Positions 6,316 through 21,424 of a stretch of 64,000 nucleotides of DNA are shown piece by piece. The stretch's first letter is position 1. Every line of letters begins with the position of its first letter. The notes under the pieces are model-generated. The model saw only the letters and a list, made by a program, of their open reading frames with translations, was not told the DNA's origin and made no database searches. Made by a program: the position numbers and the translations under genes. The DNA comes from Prauserella alba (GTDB lineage: Bacteria; Actinomycetota; Actinomycetes; Mycobacteriales; Pseudonocardiaceae), in the NCBI RefSeq assembly GCF_024171735.1, contig NZ_JAMTCH010000006.1, positions 124,001-188,000 of the forward strand. The letters run 5' to 3'.

Positions 6316-7203
6316 GTGGCCGAACGCATGGTTCCGTCCTCGCAGGCTCCGTTTTCGCAGGGCGCGTCACCCCAGCACTCGTCACCCCAGCAGCCGCCTC
6401 CCCATAGCGCCGTGCCGTCGCAGGGCGGTACGGGCACCGAGGCCGCAGCGCGCGTCGCCGACGTGCTGTTGCTGTTCACCGGCGGCCCCGAGTATCTGGG
6501 TGTCAGCACGATCAGCCGCCAACTCGGCATCTCCAAGGCCGTCGTGTACCGCATCCTCCAGTCGCTGGTGTCGCGGGACGTGCTGGCCACCACGCCCGGG
6601 GTCACCGGCTACCGACTCGGCCCCGCGGCGGTCGCACTCGGCGCCAGCGCGCTCCGCCGGTTCGACGCCAAGACCGCGGCCGCCCCGGTACTCCGGCGCC
6701 TCCGCGACGAGACCGGCGAGACCACCACGCTCTCCGGCCTGGTCGGCGACGAACGGGTGTACCTCGAGCAGTTCGACAGCCGCGCCGAGATCAAGATGAC
6801 CGTCGACATCGGCACCCGTTTCCCGCTGCACGCCGGATCGTCGGGCAAGGCGATTCTCGCGCAGCTGCCGCAGTGGCGGCGCGAGGAGATCCTCGAAGGC
6901 GGCCTCGGCGCGCTGACCGACCGCACCGTCACCGATCCGGCCACGCTGCGCGAGCAGCTCGACGCCATCGGCGCCGACGGGGTCGCGGTGTCCCTCGGCG
7001 AACGGCAGAGCGGCGCCGGCTCCGTCGCCGCCGCGCTCGTGACACCGGACGGCGAGGTGCACGGCGCGATCAGTGTCTGCGGTCCCGAGTACCGCTTCAC
7101 GCCGGAGAAGATCGAGCGCTACCGCGAACTCGTGCGCGAGGCCACCACCGAGATCATCCGGAACTGGACCAACGGGCCCGCCGCGGGCGGGCACCGGGGC
7201 TGA
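6316..7203 (+). CDS. IclR-family transcriptional regulator
   Basis: A 295-residue IclR regulator: a low-complexity Pro/Ser/Gln-rich leader of about 40 residues, a winged helix-turn-helix (STISRQLGISKAVVYRILQS) near residues 65-90, and the C-terminal effector domain with GLVGDERVYLEQFDS, the LHAGSSGKAILAQL pocket and a GAGSVAAALVTPDG core. IclR proteins usually sense an acid from the pathway they control. It lies at the far 3' end of the minus-strand liv/amidohydrolase operon, convergent with it, and its own promoter carries the operator found at that operon's promoter. GTG at 6316 or ATG at 6328 could start translation. Confidence 0.85.
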   Translation: MAERMVPSSQAPFSQGASPQHSSPQQPPPHSAVPSQGGTGTEAAARVADVLLLFTGGPEYLGVSTISRQLGISKAVVYRILQSLVSRDVLATTPGVTGYRLGPAAVALGASALRRFDAKTAAAPVLRRLRDETGETTTLSGLVGDERVYLEQFDSRAEIKMTVDIGTRFPLHAGSSGKAILAQLPQWRREEILEGGLGALTDRTVTDPATLREQLDAIGADGVAVSLGERQSGAGSVAAALVTPDGEVHGAISVCGPEYRFTPEKIERYRELVREATTEIIRNWTNGPAAGGHRG

Positions 7204-7231: not shown

Positions 7232-8701
7232 TCAGCGGCCGCGGGCCAGGTAGCGGCCGACCGGGTCACCCTGCACCGTGCCGTCGGCGAACACGTGGTT
7301 GCCGCGCACGAAGGTGTCGGTGACTCTGGCCGTCATGTCGAAGCCCTCGAACGGCGTGTACTCCTGCGTGGATTCCGAGTCGGCCGCGCGCACCGTCCAC
7401 GTCGCGGTCGGGTCGACGAGCGCGATGTCGGCGTCGTAGCCCTCGGCGATCGTGCCCTTGTTGAGCAGGCCGTAGCGCCGGGCCGGATTCCACGACGTCA
7501 GCTTCGCGACCCGTTGCGGCGACAGGCCGCGCTTGGCGCCCTCGCCGACCAGCCCCGGCAGCAGGTACTCGGCGCCGCCGAACCCCGATTTCGCGACGAA
7601 CACGTCGTCACGGTCGTCGCCGAACTTCAGTTCGTCCTTGCAGCAGGCGTGATCGCTGACGACCCAGTCGACCTCACCGGCCAGCACGTGCCGCCACAGC
7701 GCCTCGACGTCCTCCCGTTCACGCAGCGGCGGGTTGACCTTGCCGCCGACGCCGCTGGCGGTGTCCACGTCGGCCAGCAGATGGCCGACCGTGATCTCCC
7801 TCCGGAAGTCCACGTGCGGGAACGTCCCCGCCATTCGCAGCGCCGCGTCCAGCGCCTTCTCCGACGACAGGTGCAGCAGGTTGATGTTCGGCAGGCCGGT
7901 CTCGTGAGCCAGGTACGACGCGATCGTCACGGCCAGGCCCTCCGAGTGGGGCGGGCGCGACCGGCTGTAGGCACGCAGCCCGGACAGCGACGGGTCCTGC
8001 TCGACGAGCTTCGTGTACGCGGTCATGATCTCCGCCGTCTCGCAGTGCAGTGACAGCGAGAGGTGATCGGCGTAGTCCGGCAGTGCCTCCCGTGCCGCCT
8101 GGATGCCGCGCATGACGAACTCGAAGTGCGCCAGGTCGTAGCGCTCCTCGGGCGGGATCATGAGGAAGTCGCTCTGACTCGCCGACCGCCCGTGGAGGCC
8201 GTGGCTGCCGTAGAACATGAAGATCTTGAACGACGTGACGCCGTGCTGTTCGACCAGGTACGGGATCTCGTCGATGTGCTGCGACATCATCGGCGCGAGG
8301 TGGAAGGCGTAGTCCACATAGGCGTTGCCGGACGCGGCCGAGAGCACCTCGGGGAAGAACTCGCGGTACGGGCCGCCCTTGTTGAGGTAGTACTGCCCGG
8401 TGCGCATGTAGGTCAGCGCCGTGGTCACCCCGCCCTGCGCGCTCGCCCTGCTCTCGGTGCGCGTGTCGGCGGGCAGCTCGTTGTAGATGCCCCAGTGCTG
8501 GTGCGCGTCCACCACGCCGGGGAACGCCAACAGGCCGCGGCCGTCGACGACGTTCGCGGCGTCCTCGCGCGACTGTCCACTCGCGACGCGCGCGATCGTA
8601 CCGTCGTTGACCGCGATGTCGGTCGTCTCCGGCGCCGCGTTGTCCGGATCGTCGGGGCGCACCACCCGGACATCGGTGATGAGCAGTTCCGTCGTCGCCA
8701 T
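7232..8701 (-). CDS. cyclic amidohydrolase (dihydropyrimidinase/hydantoinase-like)
   Basis: A 489-residue metal-dependent hydrolase of the dihydropyrimidinase/allantoinase group, which opens cyclic amides, imides or ureides. The binuclear centre is complete: D65-x-H67-x-H69 (VDAHQH), the lysine to be carboxylated K159 (TSFKIFMF), H219 (LHCETAE), H277 (LLHLSS) and D350 (VSDHACC). It is the last gene of the minus-strand operon, 12 bases after the FAD enzyme, with AAGGAG eight bases before its ATG. No carbamoylase or half-amidase gene follows it, so the ring-opened product must be processed by other genes here or elsewhere. Substrate unknown. Confidence 0.8.
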   Translation of the reverse strand: MATTELLITDVRVVRPDDPDNAAPETTDIAVNDGTIARVASGQSREDAANVVDGRGLLAFPGVVDAHQHWGIYNELPADTRTESRASAQGGVTTALTYMRTGQYYLNKGGPYREFFPEVLSAASGNAYVDYAFHLAPMMSQHIDEIPYLVEQHGVTSFKIFMFYGSHGLHGRSASQSDFLMIPPEERYDLAHFEFVMRGIQAAREALPDYADHLSLSLHCETAEIMTAYTKLVEQDPSLSGLRAYSRSRPPHSEGLAVTIASYLAHETGLPNINLLHLSSEKALDAALRMAGTFPHVDFRREITVGHLLADVDTASGVGGKVNPPLREREDVEALWRHVLAGEVDWVVSDHACCKDELKFGDDRDDVFVAKSGFGGAEYLLPGLVGEGAKRGLSPQRVAKLTSWNPARRYGLLNKGTIAEGYDADIALVDPTATWTVRAADSESTQEYTPFEGFDMTARVTDTFVRGNHVFADGTVQGDPVGRYLARGR

Positions 8702-8713
8702 CTGTCGTTCTCC

Positions 8714-10111
8714 TTACTGCGTGTGCGAATACCGCCGGGCCACGTCGTCGGCGGCCAGCCAGGCCAGGCCGAACGCCGGCAGCAGCCCGTTGCCCGGCAG
8801 ATAACCGGCGGCGCCGCGGCCGGAGATGCCGGCCGCCGCGCCACCTGCGGCGTACAGACCGGGGATCGGCCGGTCGTCGGCGTCGACGACGGCCGCGCGC
8901 TGGTCGACCAGCAGGCCTCCTTGCGTGTGGAACAGGGCCGGCACGACCCGGACGGCGGCGAGCCTGCCCGTCAGCGGGCGCTCCCAGTTGGTCCTGCCGA
9001 ACCGGTCGGGGCGCTCGCCGCGCGCGGCCGCGGTGCTGTCGGCGACCTCGGCGGCCAGCGCCGCCGCCGGCAGGCCGGTCACCTCGGCGAGCTCGGTGGC
9101 GTCGGCACCCCACACGACGGCGCCCGCGTCGACGTTGTCCTGGAAGTCGCGGAACGGCAGGCACTGCCGGTGGATCGTCTCGTCGATGACGATCCACCCG
9201 GTGGCCCCGCGCCGCGCGGCCAGTTCCGCCGCGTACTCCGAGTAGCCGCGGGTCTCGTCACCGAAGCGCCTGCCGTCGAGGTCGACGAGGATGCCGCCGT
9301 GGATGATCGTCGCCCACCCGACGAGCGTGCCGGACTTCGCGCCGACCGCGCCGTGTCCCTGGTAGGCGTCGAGGAAACCGGATGCGGCACCGAGCTTCCG
9401 CCCGATCCGCAGCGCGTCACCGAGCGAGTGCTCGCCGCCCTGGTACAGCGCCCCGGCGATCTCGGGCAGATGTTCGGCCACGAGACCGCGGTCGGCGCCG
9501 AAGCCGTTCGTGGCGAGCAACACCGCCCGGGTCGGGATCTCCTCCTCCGCACCGTCCGGGTACCGCACCACCACGGCACGCACGGCTCCGTCGTCGTCGA
9601 GCCGGACGTCGGTCAGCCGCGCAGGTGCCAGCAGCTCGATGCCGGGATGCTCACCGGCGCGGCGCGCGAGGTGATCGATCACTCCGGAGCCGTGCCTGCC
9701 CGGGATGGTGTGGCAGCGCGGGACCGTGTGACCGGGATAGTTGAAGTCGGTCACGAGCGACAACGGCAACCCCGCCGAGTCGGCGAGCCACTCCACCAGC
9801 GGGGCACTGATCTCGGCCAGTGTCCCGGCCAGCCGCGGGTCCGCGGTGCCGTGGGTCTTGGCCATGATGTCACCGACGAACCGTTCCGGCCCGTCGTCGA
9901 TCCCCGCGTCGGCCTGCCAGCGCGATCCGGCTCCGGGGAACATCGCCGTGGACATGGACGTGTTGTTGCCCCTGCGGAAGTGTTCGCTGGCCTCGACCAC
10001 GAGCACGCTGAGCCCGTGTTCGGCAGCGCGCAGGGCGCCGGCGAGACCGCCGCCGGCCCCGGCGACGACGAGGTCGGGCCCCTCGGTCTCGGTCGGGTCG
10101 GGACCGGTCAT
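8714..10111 (-). CDS. FAD-dependent oxidoreductase of the fumarate reductase/ketosteroid dehydrogenase type
   Basis: A 465-residue single-chain flavoprotein. An N-terminal Rossmann motif (LVVAGAGGGLAGALRAAEHG), the RGNNTSMS segment after the second strand, and a C-terminal FAD-binding end (GLYAAGGAAAGISGRGAAGY) place it with soluble fumarate reductase, KSTD and tricarballylate dehydrogenase-like enzymes. These add or remove hydrogens next to a carboxylate or keto group. Its ATG overlaps the stop of the racemase-family gene (ATGA), so the two are translationally coupled. In this operon it could desaturate or reduce a dicarboxylate intermediate; that is inference. No membrane anchor or heme domain is present. 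Confidence 0.8.
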   Translation of the reverse strand: MTGPDPTETEGPDLVVAGAGGGLAGALRAAEHGLSVLVVEASEHFRRGNNTSMSTAMFPGAGSRWQADAGIDDGPERFVGDIMAKTHGTADPRLAGTLAEISAPLVEWLADSAGLPLSLVTDFNYPGHTVPRCHTIPGRHGSGVIDHLARRAGEHPGIELLAPARLTDVRLDDDGAVRAVVVRYPDGAEEEIPTRAVLLATNGFGADRGLVAEHLPEIAGALYQGGEHSLGDALRIGRKLGAASGFLDAYQGHGAVGAKSGTLVGWATIIHGGILVDLDGRRFGDETRGYSEYAAELAARRGATGWIVIDETIHRQCLPFRDFQDNVDAGAVVWGADATELAEVTGLPAAALAAEVADSTAAARGERPDRFGRTNWERPLTGRLAAVRVVPALFHTQGGLLVDQRAAVVDADDRPIPGLYAAGGAAAGISGRGAAGYLPGNGLLPAFGLAWLAADDVARRYSHTQ

Positions 10112-10785
10112 GCGGTCGGCGCTCCTTCCACGGTCAGCAGCCGCAGCGCGAGCGCGGTCGGGTCGACGATGCGCGCGGCCAGGTCGGCGGGTTCGACGTC
10201 CACCGCGGAGCAGCCGTTGAGCACCGCGGTGGCTCCGCGCTCGGCGAGCCGGGTGACCGCCCCGCCGAGCGCGGCGTTCCAGGTGGCGGTGTCGGCGATG
10301 GCGTCGAACGGCAGGTCCAGCACCTCGACCCCCGCCGAGTACGCCACCAGACCGTACGCCGCGAGCCGCCGGGTCAGCTCCGCGGCGATCGCCTCGTTGC
10401 GGACGACAGCGCCGAACCGCTCGCCACGGGCCGCCAGCACCCCCGCCGAGAGCTTCAACAGCCCGTGGATCGTCGTGCCCGATGGCGCCGCGCCGCCGGT
10501 GCCGACCCCGGCGGGCACGGCCGGGTCCAGCACGCAATCGGGAAACGCCAGGTCCCAGCCCGCCGTCCGGTCGGCCAGTGCGGCGTCGAGCGCCGATGCG
10601 ACGGCCCGCTCCGAGACGCGCACAGCGGTATCGGTGTCCAGCGCCCCCGGCGCCGCCGGGCCGACATCGCGCAGCACGATCTCGAGTCCCGGCGGTGCCA
10701 GCCGGTCGTACCGGCTCTGCCGCCTGCGGATCTCCTCGTCCGGCAGCTGGATCGGGGTCACGGCCAGTGCACGTACCACGCTCAT
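10108..10785 (-). CDS. Asp/Glu-racemase superfamily protein
   Basis: A 225-residue enzyme-sized protein with the two-cysteine pattern of the aspartate/glutamate/hydantoin racemase and maleate isomerase superfamily: C84 in FPDCVLDP and C192 in LNGCSAVDVE, each at the end of a predicted strand in one half of the molecule. Such enzymes invert a carbon next to a carboxylate or isomerise maleate to fumarate. It overlaps its neighbours by four bases on both sides, between the MmgE/PrpD and FAD genes. The first half is divergent, so racemase, isomerase or decarboxylase activity cannot be chosen from sequence. Confidence 0.65.
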   Translation of the reverse strand: MSVVRALAVTPIQLPDEEIRRRQSRYDRLAPPGLEIVLRDVGPAAPGALDTDTAVRVSERAVASALDAALADRTAGWDLAFPDCVLDPAVPAGVGTGGAAPSGTTIHGLLKLSAGVLAARGERFGAVVRNEAIAAELTRRLAAYGLVAYSAGVEVLDLPFDAIADTATWNAALGGAVTRLAERGATAVLNGCSAVDVEPADLAARIVDPTALALRLLTVEGAPTA

Positions 10786-12221
10786 TCCTCCTTCTCCGGG
10801 GCAGCGCCGTCCGGGGCAGCGCCGTCCACGGCGGATCCGGTCGGGCAGCCGCCACCCGGAGCGGGTCCCGCGGGCACACCGGCGAGTCCACGCAGGGCGT
10901 CCCCGACCCGCGGCAAGGACGCGAACTCACGGCTGAACAGCGCCAGCCGGTCGAGCAGGTCGTCGTCGCCGAGCCAGCGGCGGAGCAGGTCGGTGACGGC
11001 GGCACGGCCGAACGGCCGGTGATCGGCGTCGCCGACCGGATTGGGCACCTCGGCGATGCGGGTGTCGCCGTCGGCGTAGCGCACGGTCACTCGGGTGGCG
11101 CGTTCCGCAGGCAGGCGGGCCGTCAGGTCGTCGGCGGCGACGACGGTCACCCTGCGGGCCAGCTCCCGCAGCCCCGGATCGTTCAGCCGGCCGGCGGCGT
11201 AGGTCTGCGGCCCGACGGCGCCGTCGAGGGCAGCGGCCGCGACGACGAACGGCGTCGAGAACATCGCCGACAACCGGTTGTCCCAGTCCACTCCGGACAA
11301 TCCGGCGCCCAGCCGGTGCGTCTCCACCTGCACCTCGGCGATGGGCCTGCCGTCGGCGAGTTCGAACATCGCGTCCGCTGCCGGGTGCGTGAACGAGCAC
11401 GACGCATGCCGCTTGAAGTAGCCGGCCGTGATGTCCCACCGCGTGCCCAGCCCTGCCGTGAGCTCGTGGGGATCGAACTCGCCCAGGAGCGCCCCGAGCG
11501 ACAGGCCCGCGGTGCCGGTGTTCCTGGCGACGCCGGCGCTCGCCATGCGCGCGGCGGCGAGACCGGAGGTGTTGGCGGCCCCGAGCCAGGCGTCCCGGAC
11601 CGGATTGCCGGTCGTCGCGGAGTCGAAGTGACCGGCGATCGGCATGCCGGCTCCGGTGTCGACGGCGGCTGCGCACGCCTCGGGACCGAGGCCGAGGAGC
11701 CGGGCACATCCGGCCGCCGCGCCCGCGACGCCCCAGTTGCCGTGCGGGTGCGCTCCCGCACGCAGACCGGTGGCGCGGCCGAACCGGGCCGCCACCTCGT
11801 ACGCGGCCAGCAGCGCCGCGGCGGTGTCATCGCCGGAGGAGTCGCGCTCCGCCGCGAGTGCCAGCACCGCGGGAAACCCGTGTACCGCGGGATGCCCCTT
11901 GGCGTATTTGTTGCCCTCGTCGAGCTCGAGACACGCCATCGCCACGGCGTTCAGCCACGCCGCGGTGTCGATCGGCGCCCTCTCTCCCGTACCGAACAGC
12001 GGGGCCGGCCCGGTCGGTGCGGTCCACGCCCGCCGCAACGCGGTCTGGTCGGCTGTCCTGGCGCCCACCGCGGCGACGCCCACGACGTCGAGCACCACGA
12101 GACCGAGCCGGTCGACGACGGCGGCCGGCACCGCGGCGAGGTCCAACCGCGACACCCACTCACCGAGTCCTGCCGTGGCGGCCACCGCGGGAGTCCCCGA
12201 CATCGTCGTGTGCCTGTCCAT
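10782..12221 (-). CDS. MmgE/PrpD family protein (first of two)
   Basis: A 479-residue member of the family that includes methylcitrate dehydratase, cis-aconitate decarboxylase and iminodisuccinate epimerase. Family traits are LELDEGNKYAKGHPAVHGFPA (about residues 99-119) in place of the common DFDDTH, and GYFKRHASCSFTHPAADAM. The C-terminus carries a short duplicated Asp-Gly-Ala-Ala-Pro tail from a 15-base tandem repeat. The ATG at 12221 overlaps the livF stop as TGATG; a GTG lies one codon upstream. The second MmgE/PrpD in the divergent operon differs at the active-site segment, so the two probably act on different steps. Confidence 0.8.
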   Translation of the reverse strand: MDRHTTMSGTPAVAATAGLGEWVSRLDLAAVPAAVVDRLGLVVLDVVGVAAVGARTADQTALRRAWTAPTGPAPLFGTGERAPIDTAAWLNAVAMACLELDEGNKYAKGHPAVHGFPAVLALAAERDSSGDDTAAALLAAYEVAARFGRATGLRAGAHPHGNWGVAGAAAGCARLLGLGPEACAAAVDTGAGMPIAGHFDSATTGNPVRDAWLGAANTSGLAAARMASAGVARNTGTAGLSLGALLGEFDPHELTAGLGTRWDITAGYFKRHASCSFTHPAADAMFELADGRPIAEVQVETHRLGAGLSGVDWDNRLSAMFSTPFVVAAAALDGAVGPQTYAAGRLNDPGLRELARRVTVVAADDLTARLPAERATRVTVRYADGDTRIAEVPNPVGDADHRPFGRAAVTDLLRRWLGDDDLLDRLALFSREFASLPRVGDALRGLAGVPAGPAPGGGCPTGSAVDGAAPDGAAPEKEE

Positions 12222-12922
12222 CACAGTCCCAGGTACGCCTTCCGCACACGTTCGTCGTCGGCGAGTTCGCCGCCACCGCCGGACAGCACGACCGATCCGC
12301 TCTCCATGACGTAGGCCCGGTCGGCGATGGCCAGTGCCTGCTTCGCGTTCTGCTCCACGAGCAACACCGACACTCCGGTGTCACGAACCTCGCGCACCGC
12401 GTCCAGCATCGTCCAGGTCAACTTCGGCGACAGGCCGGTCGACGGTTCGTCGAGCAGCAACAGCCGCGGTCCCGCCATCAACGCGCGCCCGATCGCGAGC
12501 ATCTGCTGCTGGCCGCCGCTGAAGGTCTGCGCCACCTGGCCGCGGCGCTCGGCGAGGATCGGGAACAGTTCGTACACCTGGTCCAGCCGCGTCGTCGTAT
12601 CCCCGGCCGACGCGGTCCACGCTCCCATCCGGAGGTTCTCCTCGACGGTCAACGTGCCGAACAGAGCGCGGTCCTCGGGCACGTGCACCAGCCCGTCCCG
12701 CACGAGCATGTCGGGCCTGCGCCCCGCCGTGTCGGCGCCGTCGAACACGATTCGCCCCGAATGCGGTGCGAGCTGCCCGCAGATGCTGCGCAGCGCCGTG
12801 GTCTTGCCCGCGCCGTTCGCGCCGACCAATGCGACCAGTTCCCCCGCGCCGACGTGCAAGTCCACTTCGTGCAGGATGCGCATGCGCCCGTATCCGGCGC
12901 TCAGTTTCTCAAGCGTCAGCAT
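12221..12922 (-). CDS. livF: branched-chain amino acid-type ABC transporter ATP-binding protein LivF
   Basis: A 233-residue ATPase of the HAAT importer family: Walker A GANGAGKTT, signature TFSGGQQQMLAIGRAL, Walker B LLLLDEPSTGL and the switch histidine region replaced by LLVEQN, as is normal for LivF. It pairs with LivG on the cytoplasmic face of LivH-LivM. It overlaps livG by 14 bases and touches the MmgE/PrpD gene, so importer and enzymes are one transcript. Confidence 0.9.
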   Translation of the reverse strand: MLTLEKLSAGYGRMRILHEVDLHVGAGELVALVGANGAGKTTALRSICGQLAPHSGRIVFDGADTAGRRPDMLVRDGLVHVPEDRALFGTLTVEENLRMGAWTASAGDTTTRLDQVYELFPILAERRGQVAQTFSGGQQQMLAIGRALMAGPRLLLLDEPSTGLSPKLTWTMLDAVREVRDTGVSVLLVEQNAKQALAIADRAYVMESGSVVLSGGGGELADDERVRKAYLGL

Positions 12923-13646
12923 GGGGCGTCGGCTCCTCCCCGAGGTAGGCGTCGATCACGCGCGGGTCGGCCGTGACCTCGTCGGGCGTGCCGGTGGCCA
13001 GCACGGCGCCCTGGTCCATGACCAGCACGCGGTCGGACAACCGCATCACCGCGGCCATGATGTGCTCGATGAACACCAGCGTCGTGCCGTCCTGCTGCCG
13101 GAGCTCGGCCAGCAGGTCGAGGACGGGCTCACGCTCGGCGGGCAGCAGGCCGGCGAGCACCTCGTCGAGCAGCAGCACCCGCGGCCGCGCGGCGAGCGCC
13201 CTGGCCAGTTCGAGCCGTTTCAGGCCGGCCGTCGGCAGTTCGGTGGCACGCCGGTGCGCCCACTCCGTCAGTCCGACCCGCTCGACGACCTCCATGGCAC
13301 GCTCGCGCAGCCGCTCCGGCCCACGCGTGTGGTGCTGCGCGGCCAGGCTCACGTTCTCCGCCACCGTCATGCTCGCGAACGGCCGCATCAGCTGGAAGGT
13401 CCGCACCATGCCACGACGTGCGATCTTCTCCGGCTTGCGGCCGGTCACGTCACTGCCGTCGAAGTGCACCGAACCCGCATCGGGCTTCAGCGCACCGCAG
13501 ATCACGTTGAACAGCGTCGTCTTGCCGGCGCCGTTCGGGCCGATCACCCCGACGATCTCGCCCTCCGACACGGACATCTCCACATCGGACAGGGCGTGCA
13601 GGCCACGGAACTTCTTGTCCACGCCGGACAGTTCGAGCACACTCAT
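12909..13646 (-). CDS. livG: branched-chain amino acid-type ABC transporter ATP-binding protein LivG
   Basis: A 245-residue ATPase with Walker A GPNGAGKTT, Walker B RVLLLDEVLAGLLPAE and the LivG-type C-terminal ADPRVIDAYLGEE. The signature region reads LPTAGLKRLELARAL, where LSxGxQ is expected. The central Gly is kept but the first residues deviate (PTAG in place of SYGQ or SGGQ), a mild oddity. The ATG sits inside the livM stop (ATGA). Confidence 0.9.
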   Translation of the reverse strand: MSVLELSGVDKKFRGLHALSDVEMSVSEGEIVGVIGPNGAGKTTLFNVICGALKPDAGSVHFDGSDVTGRKPEKIARRGMVRTFQLMRPFASMTVAENVSLAAQHHTRGPERLRERAMEVVERVGLTEWAHRRATELPTAGLKRLELARALAARPRVLLLDEVLAGLLPAEREPVLDLLAELRQQDGTTLVFIEHIMAAVMRLSDRVLVMDQGAVLATGTPDEVTADPRVIDAYLGEEPTPHADA

Positions 13647-14707
13647 CGGCGCCGCCTTTCCGCAACCTTCTCGGCCAGAGTTCCGAAGATGCCCTTCGGC
13701 ATGAGCCGCACGATGAGAATCAGCATCACGGCGTACAGGATGACGTCGAGTCCGCTGCGTCCCTGCAGGAAGCTCAGGAACTCTGGCGGGGTCGCCAGCA
13801 GCGTCGCCGTCACGTCCGAGAGCGAGCCCACGATCACCGCTCCCACGACCGGCCCCCAGATCGTGCCGATCCCGCCGATCACGGCGGTGACGATCGCCTC
13901 GATGGACACCGAGGAACCGAACGCCAGCTGCGGATCGATGAACAGGTAGTACTGCGTGTAGAAGGCTCCCGCGACCGCGGTGATCGCACCCGAGAGCGCC
14001 ACGGTCAGCAGCTTGTGCCGCATCACAGGTGCCCCGACGGAGGCGGCCGCCAACTCGTCGTCCCGGATCGCCACGACGTAGCGACCGGCCGCCGAGTGCC
14101 GGAACAGGATGCTCAGGGCCACGGCCCCGCCCGCCAGCACGAGCGCGATCCAGAAGTAGGCGGGCGACCCGGCCGGGAACTGCAGCTGACCCACCGACGA
14201 TCCCTGGATCAGCGGCACCTGATATCCGACGGCACCGTTCACGGCGTCGCTGCTGGTGGTGATCAATCGCAGCATCTCCGCGAACGCGAAGGTCGCCAGC
14301 GCGAAGTACGCACCTTTGAGGTCGTACCGGAACGAGAAGTAGCCGATCACCATCGCCACGGCGGCCGCGACGACCATGCCGGCAGCCATGCCGACCCACG
14401 GCGACACACCGTGCTCGACCAGCAGGTACGCACTCGTGTAAGCGCCGAGGCCGAAGTACGCGGCGTGCCCGAAGCTGAACATCCCGCCGAAGCCGCTCAT
14501 GATGTTCCAGCCGACGGCCATGATCAGGAAGATCAGGATGCGCACGGCCACCGCGCCCTGCGCGGGCGGCAGGATCAACGGCAACGGGACAGCCAGCAGA
14601 ACCAGCACGGCCAGCACGGCGAACTGCCGATTCTGCGGCCGCAGCGGTGGCGCCGCGGGCCCGGCGGGCCGTGTCGGCGGCCGCGACTCGACTGCGGTGT
14701 CGGTCAT
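13643..14707 (-). CDS. livM: branched-chain amino acid-type ABC transporter permease LivM
   Basis: A 354-residue inner-membrane permease with about nine or ten helices after a 25-residue cytoplasmic leader. The LivM signature MSGFGGMFSFGHAAYFGLGAYT near residue 70 and the coupling-loop region IGGIGTIWGPVVGA near residue 270 identify it. It forms the channel with LivH. It overlaps livG and livH by four bases at each end. Confidence 0.9.
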   Translation of the reverse strand: MTDTAVESRPPTRPAGPAAPPLRPQNRQFAVLAVLVLLAVPLPLILPPAQGAVAVRILIFLIMAVGWNIMSGFGGMFSFGHAAYFGLGAYTSAYLLVEHGVSPWVGMAAGMVVAAAVAMVIGYFSFRYDLKGAYFALATFAFAEMLRLITTSSDAVNGAVGYQVPLIQGSSVGQLQFPAGSPAYFWIALVLAGGAVALSILFRHSAAGRYVVAIRDDELAAASVGAPVMRHKLLTVALSGAITAVAGAFYTQYYLFIDPQLAFGSSVSIEAIVTAVIGGIGTIWGPVVGAVIVGSLSDVTATLLATPPEFLSFLQGRSGLDVILYAVMLILIVRLMPKGIFGTLAEKVAERRRR

Positions 14708-15699
14708 GTTCGCCTCCCGAACAATCCTTGCGGACGCAGGAACAGCACCAGCACGAACACCACGAACACGCCGAGCAGGGAGCTCTGGCCGTCGAGATAG
14801 ATCGTGGTGAGCTGTTCGACCAGGCCGATCAGCAGCCCGCCGACGAGCGCGCCGACGACGTTGCCCATGCCACCGAGGACCACCACGACGAACGCGGTGA
14901 TGTTGAACTGCTCGCCCAGCGTCGGCGTGACCGAGAGCAGCGGCACGGCCAGCGCCGCCGCCGCACCGGCACAGGCTGCGCCGATGGCGAAGGTCAACGT
15001 GTGGATCCGGCGCACATTGATACCGACCAGTTCGGCCCCGGGACTGTTGGACGCGACCGCGCGGATCGCCGTGCCGAGCCGGGTGTGCTGCAACATCCAG
15101 TACAGCACCAGGCCGAGTGCCACGGCGCCCAGGAACGCGTACAGCCGCGACCCGGATACCACGGCGCCGAACACGTCGAGGTGCGTCTCGCCCGGCAACG
15201 TCACGTTCTTCGGCTCCGCCCCGAGGAACAGCAGCAGTCCGTTCTCCAGCAGCAGCGACAGTCCGAGCGTGATGAGCAACTGGTTCTCCAGCGTTGCTCC
15301 GCCTGCACCGGACAGCAGTCCGCGGTGCACGAGCGCACCGACGAGGAACAGGGCGGGCACGGTCACCAGCATCGTCAGGTACGGGTGCAGTCCGGTCACC
15401 GCCACCACGCCGAACGAGAGGAACATGGCCACGGCCAGCATCGCGCCGTGGGCGAAGTTCACGATGTCGAGCACGCCGAAGATCAGCGTGAGGCCCATCG
15501 CGATCAATCCGTACAGCCCGCCGGTCAGCAGGCCGGTCACCACCGACTGCCAGACCACGATGCCGCTGCCGGACTGAATCAGCGCGACGGCGATGGCCAC
15601 CGCCACCAGAGCGCCCACGACCCCGGCGCGCTTCAGGACCGCGACCGTGGCCGACGGCGCCCGCGTTTCCGGAGCGTCACTGTCGATCGTCGCCGTCAT
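14704..15699 (-). CDS. livH: branched-chain amino acid-type ABC transporter permease LivH
   Basis: A 331-residue permease with the LivH signatures GLYGLIAMGLTLIFGVLDIVNFAHG (the central part spans about residues 62-85) and VVVLGGMGNVVGALVGG near the C-terminus. Translation can start at ATG 15699 or at a GTG at 15705 that overlaps the livK stop (GTGA); I list the ATG. The overlap with livM is ATGA. The cargo is set by LivK and is not necessarily an amino acid; HAAT importers also carry amides, urea and aromatic or dicarboxylic acids. Confidence 0.88.
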   Translation of the reverse strand: MTATIDSDAPETRAPSATVAVLKRAGVVGALVAVAIAVALIQSGSGIVVWQSVVTGLLTGGLYGLIAMGLTLIFGVLDIVNFAHGAMLAVAMFLSFGVVAVTGLHPYLTMLVTVPALFLVGALVHRGLLSGAGGATLENQLLITLGLSLLLENGLLLFLGAEPKNVTLPGETHLDVFGAVVSGSRLYAFLGAVALGLVLYWMLQHTRLGTAIRAVASNSPGAELVGINVRRIHTLTFAIGAACAGAAAALAVPLLSVTPTLGEQFNITAFVVVVLGGMGNVVGALVGGLLIGLVEQLTTIYLDGQSSLLGVFVVFVLVLFLRPQGLFGRRT

Positions 15700-15701
15700 C
15701 G

Positions 15702-16943
15702 TCACCACGCCACCGAGTAGTCTGGGTCGGATTCGGCCTTCTCCGGGGGATACACCTGTTTCACCCGTCCGTTCTGAATCTGCATGAGCACCGCGGCCGA
15801 GTTCACGTTCTCCCCGTCCGGACCGAACCGGACCGGGCCGTCGCCGACGGTGAGGGGGTCGATCTCCGCGCGGGCGATCCCGTTGCGCACGGCCGCCGGG
15901 TCGGTGCTGCCCGCCTCCTCGACACCGGCGGCGATGGCCTGGACCGCGTCGTAGGACAGGACCGCACCGGTGCGCATCGGTGCTCCGAACCGCTGTCGGT
16001 ACTCCTCGCGCAACCTCCGGGTCTCGGGGTTCTGCGCGTCGAAGTGATAATTGGTGCTGAAGTACCGGTCGCCGAGTTCGCCGGCGTCGGACACGAATTT
16101 CGGCTGGTCGTAGGCGCCGTTCGAGACGCCCCACACCGCGTCGAGATCAGGTTTCACGGCATCGACGGCCTGCGCGATGAGCAGGCTGTCGCCGTAGTAA
16201 CCGGCGACGACGAGCACATCGGCGCCGGAGGCCTTGACCTGTGTGATCTGCGAGGTGAAGTCCGAGGCCGTGGTCGCGTCGTAGCTGATCCGCGGGCCGA
16301 CCTCCATGCCCAGCTTCTCCGCCGCCGTCTCGAAGGCGTCGGCCGCACCGGTGCCGAAATCCGTGTGCTCGTGGAGCACGGCGACCCGCTCGGCGGGTTT
16401 GCCCGCCTGTTCGGAGACCTGTTCGAGGTACTCGGCCGCCGACTCGGAGATCTTGGCGCTGCCCGGCTGCACCCGGAACGAGTAGCGGTAGCCGTGCTGG
16501 AAGATCTCGTCCGATGCGGTCACGTCCATGACGAACGGCACCTCGTTGCGCTCTGCCACGACGGCCACGTTGCTGCTGACCGAACTCTGGTAGGTGCCGA
16601 TCAGGCCGACCGCGCCGTCCGAGATCAGGCGCTGGGCCTCGCTCTGGCCGATCTCGGGCTTGCCCTGTGTATCCGCGGTCGCCAGCCGAACCTCTCGGCC
16701 GCCGAGCGAGGCGATGCCGCCGGAGTCGTTGATCTGTTCCACCGCGAGCTGCGCGCCGCGACGCATCTGCAGTCCGTCGACCGCCATCGACCCACTGACC
16801 GGGTGCAGTGCCCCGATCCTGACCGGACCGTCACCGCTACCGGCAGCGTCCCCCGCGGCGCCGGACGGCGCGGAACCACCGCAGCCCGCGGTCGCGAGCA
16901 GTGAACCCGCACCGAGGACGGCGATCAGCCTGCGAACGATCAT
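15702..16943 (-). CDS. livK: ABC transporter substrate-binding lipoprotein, LivK type
   Basis: A 413-residue periplasmic-binding-fold lipoprotein. The signal peptide ends in a lipobox LLATAGC with C21 as the lipidated residue, followed by a Gly/Ala/Ser linker. The mature domain opens VRIGALHPVSGSMAVDGLQM and contains GTYQSSVS and HEHTDFGTGAADAF, as in type I (Leu/Ile/Val-type) receptors. As the first gene of the nine-gene operon it is expressed at the top of the transcript. The promoter region carries two RTTCC-N7-GAAAC-like elements. The ligand is unknown but is presumably the compound catabolised by the downstream enzymes. Confidence 0.88.
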   Translation of the reverse strand: MIVRRLIAVLGAGSLLATAGCGGSAPSGAAGDAAGSGDGPVRIGALHPVSGSMAVDGLQMRRGAQLAVEQINDSGGIASLGGREVRLATADTQGKPEIGQSEAQRLISDGAVGLIGTYQSSVSSNVAVVAERNEVPFVMDVTASDEIFQHGYRYSFRVQPGSAKISESAAEYLEQVSEQAGKPAERVAVLHEHTDFGTGAADAFETAAEKLGMEVGPRISYDATTASDFTSQITQVKASGADVLVVAGYYGDSLLIAQAVDAVKPDLDAVWGVSNGAYDQPKFVSDAGELGDRYFSTNYHFDAQNPETRRLREEYRQRFGAPMRTGAVLSYDAVQAIAAGVEEAGSTDPAAVRNGIARAEIDPLTVGDGPVRFGPDGENVNSAAVLMQIQNGRVKQVYPPEKAESDPDYSVAW

Positions 16944-16966
16944 CTCTGATCCCTGTTCCCTGAAGT

Positions 16967-17001
16967 GTTCCGCCGAAAGAAGTTGTTCCGCTTAGAGAAA
17001 C
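16967..17001. promoter_or_regulatory. double IclR-type operator before livK
   Basis: GTTCC-N7-GAAAC occupies 16985-17001, and a degenerate copy GTTCC-N7-GAAGT occupies 16967-16983, exactly 18 bases away. They begin 24 bases upstream of the livK ATG (minus strand). The full copy has the same half-sites and spacing as 17140-17156 and 6293-6309. A regular 18-base phase is compatible with side-by-side binding of IclR dimers. Confidence 0.6.
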
Positions 17002-17139
17002 ATCATTCTGAAGTTGAGCTATCGTGACACCGACCGCAGCGATAGGTCAACAACCCTGCACAGCTTGACTACACGCGGTCAGCGGTGCCAACTTGAACCA
17101 CCGGGGACGCCGGAGTCGCGAAACATGGCGGTTATCGTT

Positions 17140-17156
17140 GTTCCCCTAAACGAAAC
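17140..17156. promoter_or_regulatory. IclR-type operator before the CoA-transferase gene
   Basis: GTTCC-N7-GAAAC identical in both half-sites to 16985-17001, on the other side of the divergent intergenic region. It ends 26 bases before the CoA-transferase start used here and two bases before an alternative ATG at 17159, which makes that alternative start less likely. Confidence 0.6.
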
Positions 17157-17182
17157 GCATGACGAAAGGCAGGTACCGCCCC

Positions 17183-18370
17183 ATGACGGGCGCATTGTCG
17201 GGAATCCGCGTCCTGGACGTGGCCACGCTGTTCGCCGGCCCATTGGCCGCGACCACGCTCGCCGATTACGGGGCCGAGGTCATCAAGATCGAGCACCCCA
17301 ACGGCGATCCGGTCCGCAACCACGGCGCGCAGCGCGACGGTGTCGGCCTGTGGTGGAAGCTGCTGGGACGCAACAAGAAAGCCGTCACGCTCTACCTCGG
17401 CTCTCCCGAAGGTCAGGAGATCTTCCGCGAGATGGTCGCCGACGCGGACGTGGTGATCGAGAACTTCCGTCCCGGCACGCTCGAACGCTGGGGTCTCGGC
17501 TACGACGAGCTCCGCAAGATCAACCCCGGGATCGTCCTCACCCGCGTCACCGGGTTCGGCCAGGTCGGGCCCTACGCCAAGCGCCCCGGGTTCGGCACCC
17601 TCGCCGAGGCCATGAGCGGCTTCGCCGCCATCACCGGCGAACCGGACGGCCCGCCGATGCTGCCGCCGTTCGGGCTCGCCGACGGCATCGCGGCGCTGGC
17701 GACGGCCTTCGCCGTGACGACGGCCCTGCGCGCGAGGGAACAGACCGGCCAGGGCCAGGTCGTCGACATGGCCATCATCGAGCCGATCCTGACCCTGCTC
17801 GGACCGCAGATCATCGCCTACGACCAGCTCGGCGTGCTGCAGGAGCGCACCGGTAACCGTTCGAGCAACAACGCGCCGCGCAACACCTACCGCACCAGGG
17901 ACGGCAGCTGGGTCGCGATCTCCACCAGCGCCCAGTCGATCGCCGAGCGCGTCATGCGGCTCGTGGGCAGGCCCGAGTTCATCGACGAGCCCTGGTTCGC
18001 CAGCGGGGCCGAACGGGCGAAGCACGCCGACGAACTCGACGAGGCGGTCGGCTCGTGGATCGCCGCGCGCGACCGCGACGAGGTCATCACGGCCTTCGAG
18101 GAGGCCCAGGCCGCGATCGCGCCGATCTACACGGCGGCCGACATCGTCGAGGACCCGCAGTTCCAGGCACTCGGCACGATCGCCACCCTGCCCGACGACG
18201 AACTCGGGCCCGTGCGGATGCAGAACGTGCTGTTCCGCATGTCCGAGACGCCGGGTGCGATCAACTGGACGGGCGCGCCGGTGGGGGCGCACACCGAGGA
18301 GGTCCTCGGCGGGTACGGCGTGACGCCGCAGCGGCTGGCCCGGCTCCGCGAACAGGGGGTCGTACGGTGA
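17183..18370 (+). CDS. class III (CaiB/BaiF) CoA-transferase
   Basis: A 395-residue CoA-transferase of the formyl-CoA/succinyl-CoA transferase fold. The opening VLDVATLFAGPLAATTLADYGAEVIKIE is split by domain interlocking later; the catalytic aspartate is D167 in FGLADGIAAL, equivalent to D169 of formyl-CoA transferase, and ENFRPGTLERWGL is the usual CoA-binding region. It would move CoA from a donor such as succinyl-CoA onto the pathway acid. It opens the plus-strand operon. I chose the ATG at 17183 (AAAGGCAGG about 10 bases upstream); 17159 would add eight residues. The lyase gene follows in a GTGA overlap. Confidence 0.88.
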   Translation: MTGALSGIRVLDVATLFAGPLAATTLADYGAEVIKIEHPNGDPVRNHGAQRDGVGLWWKLLGRNKKAVTLYLGSPEGQEIFREMVADADVVIENFRPGTLERWGLGYDELRKINPGIVLTRVTGFGQVGPYAKRPGFGTLAEAMSGFAAITGEPDGPPMLPPFGLADGIAALATAFAVTTALRAREQTGQGQVVDMAIIEPILTLLGPQIIAYDQLGVLQERTGNRSSNNAPRNTYRTRDGSWVAISTSAQSIAERVMRLVGRPEFIDEPWFASGAERAKHADELDEAVGSWIAARDRDEVITAFEEAQAAIAPIYTAADIVEDPQFQALGTIATLPDDELGPVRMQNVLFRMSETPGAINWTGAPVGAHTEEVLGGYGVTPQRLARLREQGVVR

Positions 18371-19206
18371 CGGCACCGGTGCGGACGTGGCTCTACGTTC
18401 CCGCCGACCGCCCGGAGCGGATCGCCAAGGCCCTGGCATCGGACGCCGACGCCGTGATCCTCGACCTCGAGGACGCCGTGGCCCCGGACGCCAAGGAGCG
18501 GGCGCGGCGCAACGTCGTCGCGGCGCTCGCCGACGGCCACCGCGCCTACGTGCGCGTCAACGAGTCCGGCACTCCACACGGGACGGCCGATGTGGACGCA
18601 CTCGTCGCCGCTTCCGTCCCGCCGGCAGGGGTCCGGATTCCCAAGTGCGAGGACCCGGCGCAGCTGAGCGGGGTCGCCGAGCGACTCGGCGTGCCCGTGT
18701 ACCCGATCGTCGAGTCGGCACGGGGCGTGGAATGCGCCTACGCCCTCGCCACCGCGCACCCTCTCGTGTCGGGCATCTCCCTCGGTGAGGCCGACCTCGC
18801 CGCGGACCTGCGCGTCACCGATCGGAACGCGCTCACCTGGGCGAGGTCCCGGGTGGTCGTGGCCGCTCGCGCGGCGGGCCTGCCCAGCCCCGCGCAGAGT
18901 GTGTGGACCGCGGTCCGCGACCTCGACGGCCTGCGCGCCGACACCGATGAGGGGCGGCGGGCGGGTTTCTTCGGCCGGTCGGTCATCCACCCGGAGCAGA
19001 TTCCCGTGGTGCACGCGGCCTGCCGCCCCGACCCCGACGACGTGGCGTGGGCGCGGTCGCTTGTGGACACGGTGCGTGATTCCGGCGAGGCGGCGTGGAT
19101 CGACTCCACGGGCCGCTTCGTCGACAAAGCGGTCGTCGAGCGAGCGCTGTGGCTGCTCGCGATCGCCGACGAGGACCAGAACGGCAAGGAAGGCCAGACG
19201 TCATGA
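18367..19206 (+). CDS. CitE-like HpcH/HpaI-family acyl-CoA lyase
   Basis: A 279-residue TIM-barrel lyase of the citrate lyase beta/malyl-CoA lyase group. Key segments are RTWLYVPADRPERI at the N-terminus, VILDLEDAVAPDAK with acidic metal ligands, YVRVNE, and ISLGEADLAADL with a further acidic ligand; GRSVIHPEQI closes the barrel. Related enzymes cleave malyl-CoA, citramalyl-CoA or HMG-CoA-like esters to acetyl-CoA plus an oxoacid. Directly behind a CoA-transferase it most likely cleaves the activated beta-hydroxy acid. GTG start within the previous stop; the stop overlaps the cyclase ATG. Confidence 0.85.
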   Translation: MTAPVRTWLYVPADRPERIAKALASDADAVILDLEDAVAPDAKERARRNVVAALADGHRAYVRVNESGTPHGTADVDALVAASVPPAGVRIPKCEDPAQLSGVAERLGVPVYPIVESARGVECAYALATAHPLVSGISLGEADLAADLRVTDRNALTWARSRVVVAARAAGLPSPAQSVWTAVRDLDGLRADTDEGRRAGFFGRSVIHPEQIPVVHAACRPDPDDVAWARSLVDTVRDSGEAAWIDSTGRFVDKAVVERALWLLAIADEDQNGKEGQTS

Positions 19207-20024
19207 CACGTTCCCAGGACCCGCTGCTCGCCGCCGTTTCCGGCGGGGTCCGGCTCTACGAGCTCGGGCAGCCCTTCTTCACGGGCATGCCGTGTTCGCC
19301 GAACCATCCGGGTTTCCGGATGACGCTCATCCGCAGACACGGCGACATGGAACGCCCCGACGGCGGTTCGGCCGCCAACGAGATCATCGTCACCGGCGGC
19401 CACGTCGGCACCCACATCGACGCGCTCTCGCACGTGAGCCACTGCGGCGAGCTCCACGGCGGGGTCGACGCGGCCGAGGCACAGCAGGGCGGCACGTTCA
19501 GCACGCACGGGGCGGAGAACCTGCCGGGCCTGCTGCGGCGCGCGGTGCTGCTCGACGTGGCGGCCGTCCACGGTGTGCCGACGCTGCCCGCAGGGTACGG
19601 CGTCACCGCCGACGACCTCGCCGCGGCCGCCGAGCTTGCGGGTGCCGAACCGGGGCGGGGCGACGTCGCACTGGTGCGCACCGGCTGGGCACGCCACTTC
19701 GCGGACTCGGCGACCTACATGGGCAAGGAGACAGGTGTGCCGGGTCCGACCGTCGAGGCGGGACGGTGGCTGGCCGATCGGGGCGTCGTCGCGACCGGCG
19801 CCGACACCACGGCCTACGAACAGATCCCCGCGGGAGCGGGACACGCCGTCCTGCCGGTGCACCGAGTGCTGCTGGTCGAGTCGGGCATCTTCATCATGGA
19901 ACACCTCAACCTCGAGGAGATCGCCGACGTGGGCGTCCGCGAGTTCAGCTTCCTGCTCGCTCCGCTGCGCATCACCGGCGGCACCGGTTCGCCGATCCGC
20001 CCGCTCGCGGCGGTGAGCGCATGA
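19203..20024 (+). CDS. cyclase-family metal hydrolase (kynurenine formamidase/isatin hydrolase-like)
   Basis: A 273-residue protein of the PF04199 cyclase family, recognised by the metal motif HVGTHIDALSHV (HxGTHxDxxxH) near residue 64 and the partner segment TGADTTAYEQ. Family members hydrolyse formamide or lactam bonds (kynurenine formamidase, isatin hydrolase). It overlaps both neighbours by ATGA. Together with the cyclic amidohydrolase of the divergent operon, it gives the locus two distinct amide/lactam-opening activities. Confidence 0.85.
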   Translation: MTRSQDPLLAAVSGGVRLYELGQPFFTGMPCSPNHPGFRMTLIRRHGDMERPDGGSAANEIIVTGGHVGTHIDALSHVSHCGELHGGVDAAEAQQGGTFSTHGAENLPGLLRRAVLLDVAAVHGVPTLPAGYGVTADDLAAAAELAGAEPGRGDVALVRTGWARHFADSATYMGKETGVPGPTVEAGRWLADRGVVATGADTTAYEQIPAGAGHAVLPVHRVLLVESGIFIMEHLNLEEIADVGVREFSFLLAPLRITGGTGSPIRPLAAVSA

Positions 20025-21424
20025 GCACGCTGGTGCAACGCCTCGCCCGGCTGGCGTCGGCGACTCGCGACGACGGCCTCGCCCCGGAACTACGGGACGA
20101 CGTCGCACGCCGGGTTCTCGACGTACTCGGCAACAGTCTCGCCGCGACGGCGGAACCACCCGCCGAGGCGGTCGGCAGGCTCGTCCGGGAATGGGGCGGC
20201 GCGGGCCGGTCGACGGCCATCGGCGCACAACCCGTGCCGGAGCCGAGCGCCGCCCTGCTGAACGGCACGCTCGCCCACTCGCTCGACTTCGACGACACGC
20301 ACCTGCCGTCGGTGCTCCACCCGTCGGCGTCCGTGGTACCCGCTGCGTTGGCCGTCGCCGAGTCACGGGGCGCGAGCGGCGCGCAGCTGCTCGATGCGAT
20401 CGGTGTGGGCATCGAGGTGGCGGTGCGGCTCGGAATGGCCGGCTACGACTCGGACCTCGGCAACTCGGTGTTCTTCGAGCACGGCCTGCACGCCACGGCG
20501 ATCTGCGGCGCGGTCGGCGGCGCCGTGTCGGCGGCGATGCTGTCCGGTGTGGACACCGACGGCATCGCCGACACGGTGGGGATCGCGGCGAGCATGGGCT
20601 CCGGTCTGCTCGAGGCGAACCGCACGGGCGGCACGGTCAAACGGATCCACTGCGGATGGGCCGCACACGCCGCCGTGACGGCCGCCGGGCTCGCGCGCGC
20701 CGGCATCACCGGTCCGCCGACCGTACTCGAAGGCCGGTTCGGCATGCTGCAGGCGTTCTGCGGCGACCGGGTCGACCTCGACGCCGTCACGACCGGGCTC
20801 GGCGAGCGGTGGGAGCTGCCGGGGATCTTCTTCAAGCCCTACCCGTGCAACCACTTCACCCACGCCGGCATCGACGCGGCGCTGCGGCTGCGGGCCCGCG
20901 GGATCGATCCCTCGGCGATCGAGAGCATCGAGCTCGGAGCACCCACGGCGGTGTTGCGGACCATCGGCCAGCCACCCGCGGAGAAGGCGGTCCCCAAGTC
21001 GGGGTACCACGCGGCGTTCTCCGGCCCGTACACCGTGGCCGCGGCGCTACTCGGGGGCGGCGGGCTCGGCGTGTTCCACGAGGACTTCACCGACGCCGCG
21101 GCCGCCGATCCGGACCGGCTGGCGCTCGCAGCCAGGGTGACGTGCGTTCCCGACGCGGAATGCGACCGGATCTTCCCGCACCAGTTCCCCGCGGTGCTGC
21201 GGGTTCGGCTGTCCGACGGCATCGAACTCAGCGAGCGCGTCGACGTCAACCGGGGTGGCCACGGCAATCCGCTGTCGGCCGACGAGCTCGCGACGAAGTT
21301 CCGGCTGAACGCCACGCGTGCCGTCACCGACGCGCGCGCCGAGCGGATCACCGAGCTCACCTACGGACTGGCCGGGCTACCCGACGTCACGGCGCTGACC
21401 GGGGAACTCGTCACCGACGCCTGA
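20021..21424 (+). CDS. MmgE/PrpD family protein (second of two)
   Basis: A 467-residue member of the methylcitrate dehydratase/cis-aconitate decarboxylase/iminodisuccinate epimerase family with the canonical NGTLAHSLDFDDTHLPSVLH segment near residues 81-100, the GGTVKRIHCGWAAHAA motif and FFKPYPCNHFTHAGIDAAL. It closes the plus-strand operon and is followed by a strong hairpin. Compared with the first MmgE/PrpD it retains the classical DFDDTH loop. A dehydration, hydration or epimerisation of a hydroxy- or amino-dicarboxylate is the reasonable guess. Confidence 0.82.
   Translation: MSTLVQRLARLASATRDDGLAPELRDDVARRVLDVLGNSLAATAEPPAEAVGRLVREWGGAGRSTAIGAQPVPEPSAALLNGTLAHSLDFDDTHLPSVLHPSASVVPAALAVAESRGASGAQLLDAIGVGIEVAVRLGMAGYDSDLGNSVFFEHGLHATAICGAVGGAVSAAMLSGVDTDGIADTVGIAASMGSGLLEANRTGGTVKRIHCGWAAHAAVTAAGLARAGITGPPTVLEGRFGMLQAFCGDRVDLDAVTTGLGERWELPGIFFKPYPCNHFTHAGIDAALRLRARGIDPSAIESIELGAPTAVLRTIGQPPAEKAVPKSGYHAAFSGPYTVAAALLGGGGLGVFHEDFTDAAAADPDRLALAARVTCVPDAECDRIFPHQFPAVLRVRLSDGIELSERVDVNRGGHGNPLSADELATKFRLNATRAVTDARAERITELTYGLAGLPDVTALTGELVTDA

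Follow-up and report, generated by a model that had tools for sequence, protein, structure and literature searches.

Gene content of the locus

The stretch of DNA analysed here (hereafter the window) comprises 64,000 bp from Prauserella alba, corresponding to positions 124001–188000 of contig NZ_JAMTCH010000006.1 in a genome of 5.6 Mb. Between positions 7232 and 21424 of the window lie two divergent operons that encode a Liv-type importer together with a cyclic amidohydrolase, a flavin adenine dinucleotide (FAD)-type oxidoreductase, a racemase-like protein, two MmgE/PrpD proteins, a coenzyme A (CoA)-transferase, a CitE-type lyase and a Cyclase-family hydrolase. An earlier reading of the DNA letters (the original prediction) had put this set forward as a candidate catabolic pathway, and the idea of such a pathway, encoded jointly by the two operons, is supported by the linkage of the genes, the conservation of their catalytic residues and an operator-like dyad common to both operons.

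All of the genes are intact open reading frames, and the family labels given to them earlier held in profile searches (amidohydrolase, FAD_binding_2, two MmgE/PrpD, CoA-transferase III, HpcH/HpaI, Cyclase and Liv); livH was named otherwise, by its sequence and position and by alignment across loci. The minus-strand operon consists of nine genes. It begins with livK, encoding the substrate-binding protein (15702–16943; Peripla_BP_6 above cut-off), the permease genes livH (14704–15699, with a possible alternative GTG start at 15708) and livM (13643–14707), and the ATPase genes livG (12909–13646) and livF (12221–12922). These are followed by prpD1 (10782–12224), the gene for the racemase-like protein (10108–10785), that for the FAD_binding_2 oxidoreductase of the flavocytochrome c/urocanate reductase/ketosteroid dehydrogenase superfamily (8714–10111), and that for the amidohydrolase, which is of the dihydropyrimidinase/allantoinase type (7232–8701). 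The plus-strand operon has four genes, namely caiB (family III CoA-transferase; 17159–18370), citE (CitE/Ccl-type acyl-CoA lyase of the HpcH/HpaI family; 18367–19206), the cyclase gene (PF04199 metal hydrolase; 19203–20024) and prpD2 (20021–21424). Most adjacent genes in both operons share a 4-bp overlap, suggestive of translational coupling.

Two elements that were absent from the original prediction belong with the set. One is a plus-strand gene at 6316–7203 for an IclR-family protein (PF01614 and PF09339 above cut-off), the probable regulator of the whole set. The other is the dyad.

A shared operator-like dyad and the IclR-family regulator

The divergent livK promoter regions have in common a 17-bp dyad, GTTYC-N7-GRAAC. 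We cut out the region between livK and its divergent neighbour in 48 loci and in the window, and all 49 regions contain a copy of the dyad that departs from it at no more than one position; an exact copy is present in 36 of them and two or more copies in 39. After 200 base shuffles, by comparison, the dyad was found in a mean of 1.5 regions (maximum 5), and two or more copies in a mean of 0.02 (maximum 1). The members of a pair are 131–156 bp apart, mostly 143–144 or 154–156 bp. Both members are exact in the window, where GTTCCGCTTAGAGAAAC lies on the livK side (16985–17001) and GTTCCCCTAAACGAAAC on the caiB side (17140–17156). Two more copies, each with one mismatch, are located upstream of iclR (6204–6220 and 6293–6309), at the same distances from the gene (112 and 23 bp) as in Prauserella salsuginis. 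Across the window there are two exact and nine one-mismatch copies, where chance alone would give 4.4 in total; apart from the two that precede iclR, the one-mismatch copies (seven) are scattered.

The promoter of iclR was compared across loci L064–L088, in which the gene was in view in 24 of 25. Where iclR has its own promoter, two dyads lie upstream in 12/12 loci (in the four Prauserella loci, both have one mismatch), whereas in the 12 Actinomadura loci where iclR sits downstream of the amidohydrolase gene, a dyad precedes it in 0/12; the genomes on each side of this split are related and hence not independent. Because of the split, the dyad appears to be tied to IclR and is its predicted operator. 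Since it is common to the divergent promoters and to the separate iclR promoters, the two operons very probably form a single IclR regulon. We propose that IclR would repress both operons, and probably its own gene, via GTTYC-N7-GRAAC, and that binding of the substrate or of an intermediate would lift this repression. The original prediction had named a lack of co-induction of the two operons as evidence that would speak against it; such an outcome is unlikely, given that both promoters carry the conserved dyad. The host genome contains 27 exact sites versus 3 for the pattern read backwards, with the conserved spacing only at the window pair; only exact sites were searched genome-wide, and we claim no second target of the regulon.

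Conservation and variation among actinobacteria

We regard seven enzymes as the core of the set: the amidohydrolase, FAD enzyme, racemase, CaiB, CitE, cyclase and PrpD2. A racemase search of 397 genomes of the order gave 30 matches at E ≤ 0.001, comprising 22 strong (E ≤ 3.5e-26, the window's own included) and 8 weak ones. All seven core enzymes are found within the fetched stretch in 17 of the 21 other strong neighbourhoods; the lower half (CaiB, CitE, cyclase and PrpD2) was not found within 20–32 kb at G163, G087 and G339, and crude gene calling left G160 unresolved. A collection of 84,980 species was then scanned with one nine-residue pattern around the first racemase cysteine, which relatives without the pattern would escape. 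This yielded 119 stretches, 111 of them relatives, and the best 80, all labelled as actinobacterial, were kept with 10-kb flanks. At presence thresholds of 40% identity (30% for CitE and 38% for PrpD1), 50 of these 80 loci have all seven core enzymes, 69 have PrpD1, 53 LivK and 66 IclR; among the remaining 30, a number are truncated at a contig end or at the limit of the 10-kb flank. These loci overlap with the genomes of the order searched above (several assemblies are apparently the same), and the two sets of counts are not independent. Finally, in a phylum-wide draw of 396 genomes, 8 (own included) gave strong matches and 8 weak ones.

Based on these counts, the gene set is widespread but uncommon among actinobacteria. 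Its carriers include genera such as Streptomyces and Rhodococcus and extend to uncultured Candidatus Nanopelagicales, the nearest named relative being that of P. salsuginis (racemase 91% identical), and a racemase search of plasmids gave no match. The comparison of gene neighbourhoods suggested with the original prediction thus finds the set kept across many actinobacterial genera, more than chance would allow. The protein distances of the upper and lower halves agree (nine pairs, Spearman 0.47–0.87; 0/300 permutations as high), which fits joint inheritance but does not prove it, since shared descent of whole genomes would give the same agreement.

Importers and side enzymes differ between loci. 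A gene for an ACS-type organic-anion carrier of the major facilitator superfamily accompanies the set, with no Liv gene seen, in 13 non-redundant loci (one protein scanned). In loci from metagenome-assembled genomes (MAGs), an NMT1-type ATP-binding cassette (ABC) importer is found with the racemase and FAD genes (permease in seven loci; one binding protein scanned), and a sugar-type ABC importer seemingly takes this place in L138/L140, as read from the sequence. MAG loci such as L093, L094, L097, L105 and L107 have, within the stretch, only the racemase and FAD enzyme of the seven. The contigs of L097 and L107 are labelled as a Bifidobacterium breve MAG, with the same racemase/FAD gene order as other actinobacterial MAGs; the label is probably wrong.

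In G087 (L043), the upper triad of amidohydrolase, FAD enzyme and racemase occurs without the lower half, adjoined by genes for an AMP ligase, a chlorohydrolase/deaminase-type amidohydrolase, a RidA-like protein and a short-chain dehydrogenase/reductase (SDR). This arrangement suggests that the triad is a ring-level module, and that CaiB, CitE, cyclase and PrpD2 constitute a lower module. By their sequence starts, the neighbours of a racemase relative in G339 (L063) resemble those of L043; no core amidohydrolase or FAD gene was called there.

Predicted enzymes and a candidate route from a cyclic imide

Our preferred, though tentative, reading is that the genes form a single catabolic regulon, controlled by IclR, for the breakdown of a small cyclic amide with a branched C4 dicarboxylate skeleton, most likely a 2- (or 2,3-) substituted succinimide or maleimide. 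A cyclic imide is favoured because it is the simplest compound that links enzymes of C4 diacids (MmgE/PrpD, CaiB and CitE) with an amidohydrolase releasing a half-amide or ureido acid, and leaves no nitrogen chemistry over. No aminotransferase or ammonia-lyase was recognised among the gene families recurring in at least four neighbourhoods (a soft negative, as neighbours were partly scanned), which is as expected if the nitrogen leaves by hydrolysis. We infer the substrate and the individual steps from enzyme families, and the proposal is least secure in the order of its middle steps.

LivKHMGF would import the compound and, once the racemase and FAD enzyme had acted on it (see below), the binuclear amidohydrolase, as the proposed imidase, would open the ring to a half-amide. 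Its six metal ligands (H67, H69, K159, H219, H277 and D350) are in place and conserved over 64 homologues, and the available portion of PMC9863593 describes the ligand set of cyclic amidohydrolases and counts imidases in this family. Together with the dihydropyrimidinase/allantoinase-type family match, this bears out the earlier assignment as a cyclic amidohydrolase. Among the best 25 of 58 matches, the protein reaches neither the curated allantoinase equivalog (215.9 vs. a cut-off of 357.85 bits) nor that of D-hydantoinase (174.9 vs. 393.25). The Cyclase-family hydrolase, as the proposed half-amidase, would then take off the amide nitrogen as ammonia. It scores 93.8 bits against PF04199 (cut-off 23.1), and HVGTHIDALSH at residues 67–77 retains an intact HxGTHxD..H, which we take to be the metal motif.

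The two-cysteine racemase would epimerise the acidic carbon beside the ring carbonyl. The racemase-family label holds for two cluster orthologues above the PF01177 cut-off of 31 bits (G012, 51.8; G180, 45.8), with two others below it (G027, 25; G239, 20.6), but not directly for the window copy, which is too divergent to match PF01177 or any other Pfam family at E ≤ 1 in hmmscan. A profile built from 40 cluster racemases retrieves a PF01177 protein in G034 (E 1e-9), and C84 and C192 are invariant in these 40 sequences. By their correspondence to the PF01177 relative, they are the likely catalytic positions, presumably equivalent to the two catalytic cysteines of Asp/Glu/hydantoin racemases. The predicted model has a mean predicted local distance difference test score (pLDDT) of 93.3 and a predicted template modelling score (pTM) of 0.90. 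A role resembling that of arylmalonate decarboxylase is not favoured for the racemase, as both cysteines are invariant.

A racemase of the Asp/Glu/hydantoin superfamily and an amidohydrolase whose best models include allantoinase, hydantoin-5-propionate hydrolase and hydantoinase would also suit a cyclic ureide, i.e., a hydantoin or dihydropyrimidine whose side chain is acidic, such as 5-carboxymethylhydantoin and dihydroorotate-like or methylated analogues. Hydantoin racemase and hydantoinase would then yield an N-carbamoyl aspartate-type acid, a PrpD or the cyclase would strip off the ureido group, leaving an unsaturated or hydroxy diacid to be processed by CaiB and CitE. In G163, moreover, a racemase-PrpD1 pair lies beside hydantoinase/oxoprolinase A and B genes. 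Hydantoin utilisation combines a hydantoin racemase and a hydantoinase with a carbamoylase, and shares with the window the pairing of racemase- and amidohydrolase-superfamily enzymes. However, the window core has a CoA-dependent lower pathway in place of a carbamoylase, and none was recognised as recurrent among the partly scanned neighbours (a single C–N hydrolase occurs, in L118); CaiB and CitE would also be unneeded for unbranched aspartate-type products. We consider the ureide rather unlikely.

For the cyclic imide, the FAD enzyme, as the proposed ring dehydrogenase, would introduce (or remove) a C=C bond in the ring. Its FHTQGG and D..GR motifs are conserved. In place of the SNRLGGN of two succinate/fumarate-like relatives (Arg motif NRLGGN), the window protein has GAAGYLPGNG, and the replacement GYL.GNGLL is invariant in 28 cluster FAD sequences. 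The Arg motif is also missing from two ketosteroid-dehydrogenase-type relatives and from the nearer relative G021 (five of the seven relatives tried were compared; L192 and L205, with no usable frame, were left out). Because this Arg is presumably the substrate-carboxylate Arg of succinate/fumarate-type flavoproteins, its absence suggests that the substrate of the enzyme may be the ring or amide and not a free C4 dicarboxylate. The original prediction of a FAD enzyme working on a C4–C6 dicarboxylate was thus right as to the FAD enzyme, but the missing motif makes that substrate less likely.

PrpD2, the proposed hydratase (with PrpD1 where present), would hydrate or rearrange the substituted maleate to a malate- or citramalate-type hydroxy acid; CaiB would transfer CoA onto it, and CitE would cleave the product to an acyl-CoA and pyruvate or another 2-oxo acid. 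Both PrpD proteins match the N- and C-terminal MmgE/PrpD domains above the Pfam cut-offs. PrpD2 retains the columns that bind a 1,4-dicarboxylate, as assigned in the available part of PMC12290011, whereas Arg replaces one active-site Lys in the divergent PrpD1. The same partial source describes a second catalytic Tyr for iminodisuccinate (IDS) epimerase and for methylsuccinate isomerase, the latter compared by description and not aligned. At the Tyr column of IDS epimerase, PrpD1 has Leu and PrpD2 a Phe that is conserved over 30 homologues; cis-aconitate decarboxylase has Met and Bacillus subtilis IRG1, which has no assigned function, has Tyr. The parallel drawn earlier with the MmgE/PrpD epimerase of ethylenediaminedisuccinate (EDDS) degradation therefore holds for the family, but is weak in that neither protein has the second Tyr, and an IDS/EDDS epimerase role for either is correspondingly weakened. 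In the lower operon, the Asp of FGLAD in CaiB and the Asp, Glu and Arg of CitE are conserved, so that both the families and the catalytic residues of the predicted CoA-transferase and lyase are borne out.

These lower enzymes could also be read as the heart of a pathway for a branched short-chain dicarboxylate (itaconate, methylsuccinate or citramalate), with the ring enzymes as optional feeders. CitE is closest to the acyl-CoA lyase beta chains 8khl/9nzb in the PDB and to the RipC_Ccl model, and as far as the available portions of PMC12290011 and PMC9875883 go, the Pseudomonas itaconate/methylsuccinate cluster PA0878–PA0886 (ich, mcd, a ring-cleaving-dioxygenase-like gene, mmgE, ict and ccl) likewise groups a CoA-transferase, a CitE-type lyase and an MmgE/PrpD protein beside a transporter. 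However, CitE scores 158.5 bits against RipC/Ccl itaconate lyase (cut-off 375), and CaiB 210.7 against mesaconate CoA-transferase (cut-off 700) and 246.3 against succinate-glutarate CoA-transferase (cut-off 750). Unlike the Pseudomonas cluster, the window set has no itaconyl-CoA hydratase or acyl-CoA dehydrogenase (nor was either recognised among recurrent neighbours), and adds the amidohydrolase, racemase, FAD enzyme, cyclase and a second PrpD. The amidohydrolase and racemase travel with the set, and PrpD2 has its Phe at the epimerase Tyr position. Such a pathway is improbable, and as a whole explanation it is not favoured. The original prediction had held that the itaconate/mesaconate and EDDS routes account for the set only in part, and this agrees with three shared enzyme families and an extra ring module.

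Accessory genes supplied a further alternative. A muconolactone-isomerase-like gene is present in four loci (one scanned), and in L135 it is located between livF and the racemase gene; with the ACS-type organic-anion carrier gene of 13 loci (one scanned), it would accord with an unsaturated lactone or butenolide opened by the amidohydrolase or cyclase. We give this little credence, as the amidohydrolase falls within the cyclic amide branch, and the isomerase is rare and, at 79.7 bits, stays short of its equivalog cut-off (130.6). Other loci contain an EthD-like protein (just above cut-off) and a weakly PNPOx-like protein (five loci), an F420-type luciferase-like monooxygenase (LLM; L143, with a similar-looking one in G040), or an old yellow enzyme (OYE) and a weakly SnoaL-like protein (the three MAG loci L095, L107 and L130; L107 proteins scanned). 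The best model for the OYE-type gene is mycofactocin OYE 2, and bilirubin reductase is a secondary match; neither reaches its cut-off. The muconolactone-isomerase-like, OYE and F420-type LLM genes suggest work on a C=C bond beside a carbonyl, and the C–N hydrolase that adjoins the set in Pseudonocardia acaciae fits an amide step.

Several points weigh against the cyclic imide reading. Besides the lack of a Pfam match for the window racemase, none of the core enzymes attains, among the matches listed, the curated cut-off of any characterised equivalog, and specificities are for this reason read from superfamilies only; nothing singles out an imide over a cyclic ureide or a lactone. We know of no characterised precedent for hydration of a substituted maleate by a PrpD protein, the known MmgE/PrpD reactions being dehydration, decarboxylation and epimerisation. 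Within the stretches, no FAD gene was found between racemase and amidohydrolase in L077 and L079 (Actinomadura), and PrpD1 was not found in L095 and L130 although the seven core enzymes are present, so that both proteins may be dispensable; L104, L120 and L135 yielded no CaiB.

Other systems resemble parts of the imide route. Microbial cyclic-imide metabolism in Blastobacter and Pseudomonas uses an imidase and a half-amidase to reach simple C4 acids; like it, the window set would combine dihydropyrimidinase-like ring opening with amide removal to a dicarboxylate, but it adds the racemase, FAD enzyme, PrpD, CoA-transferase and CitE lyase. Nicotinate fermentation ends with dimethylmaleate hydratase and dimethylmalate lyase, so that a substituted maleate is likewise hydrated and then cleaved to pyruvate, but the hydratase there is of another family and no CoA step is involved. 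We found no published description of such a gene set in the open-licence PMC literature (searched for the enzyme set as well as for hematinic acid, imides and dimethylmalate), in keeping with the original view that the pathway is undescribed.

A more specific version of the imide reading, which we consider very unlikely, is that bacteria use the regulon to degrade the maleimides arising by oxidation of tetrapyrroles (heme, chlorophyll and bilins), i.e., hematinic acid and methyl-ethyl-maleimide. If so, opening of the ring and removal of the amide would lead to a 2,3-dialkylmaleate and hydration to a dialkylmalate, which CoA transfer and CitE would convert to pyruvate plus glutaryl-CoA (from hematinic acid) or butyryl-CoA (from methylethylmaleimide). 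It would also help explain the occurrence of the set in cultured actinomycetes and in uncultured actinobacteria, the MAG carriers being apparently aquatic, and of an OYE-type gene in some of the latter. 

Whichever reading applies, carriage from Streptomyces and Rhodococcus to Candidatus Nanopelagicales makes a common natural compound, not a pollutant, the probable substrate. The locus offers a clearly delimited pathway that is apparently co-regulated, seven enzymes whose specificity is uncertain, reactions that may be new to the MmgE/PrpD and racemase superfamilies, and, in IclR and its 17-bp dyad, a ready candidate sensor for finding the substrate.

Several neighbouring and related genes were also noted. 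At 1796–6159 of the window, genes for a 2-keto-3-deoxygluconate-permease-like protein (kdgT), a D-threonate-kinase-like protein (dtnK), a PdxA-type dehydrogenase and a GntR regulator form a probable four-carbon sugar-acid operon; as this block was seen next to the set only in Prauserella, it was rejected as part of the pathway. At 22618–25055, a class III aminotransferase and an SDR adjoin a LysR regulator; the LysR and aminotransferase genes recur in G239 but were not recognised in other genera (several stretches end near prpD2), and they are not favoured as members. In G163 (L042/L062), the closest models of the hydantoinase/oxoprolinase A and B proteins are caprolactamase subunits (below cut-off), and an amidase-like protein, a CaiB homologue and a peptide-type ABC importer are present by similarity or reading, making this another undescribed-looking ring-degradation cluster. 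Lastly, elsewhere on the P. alba contig, outside the window, L144 encodes at 8659–11411 another PrpD1-like protein (35%) and, paired with it, another amidohydrolase (27%), which suggests a related pathway in the same genome.

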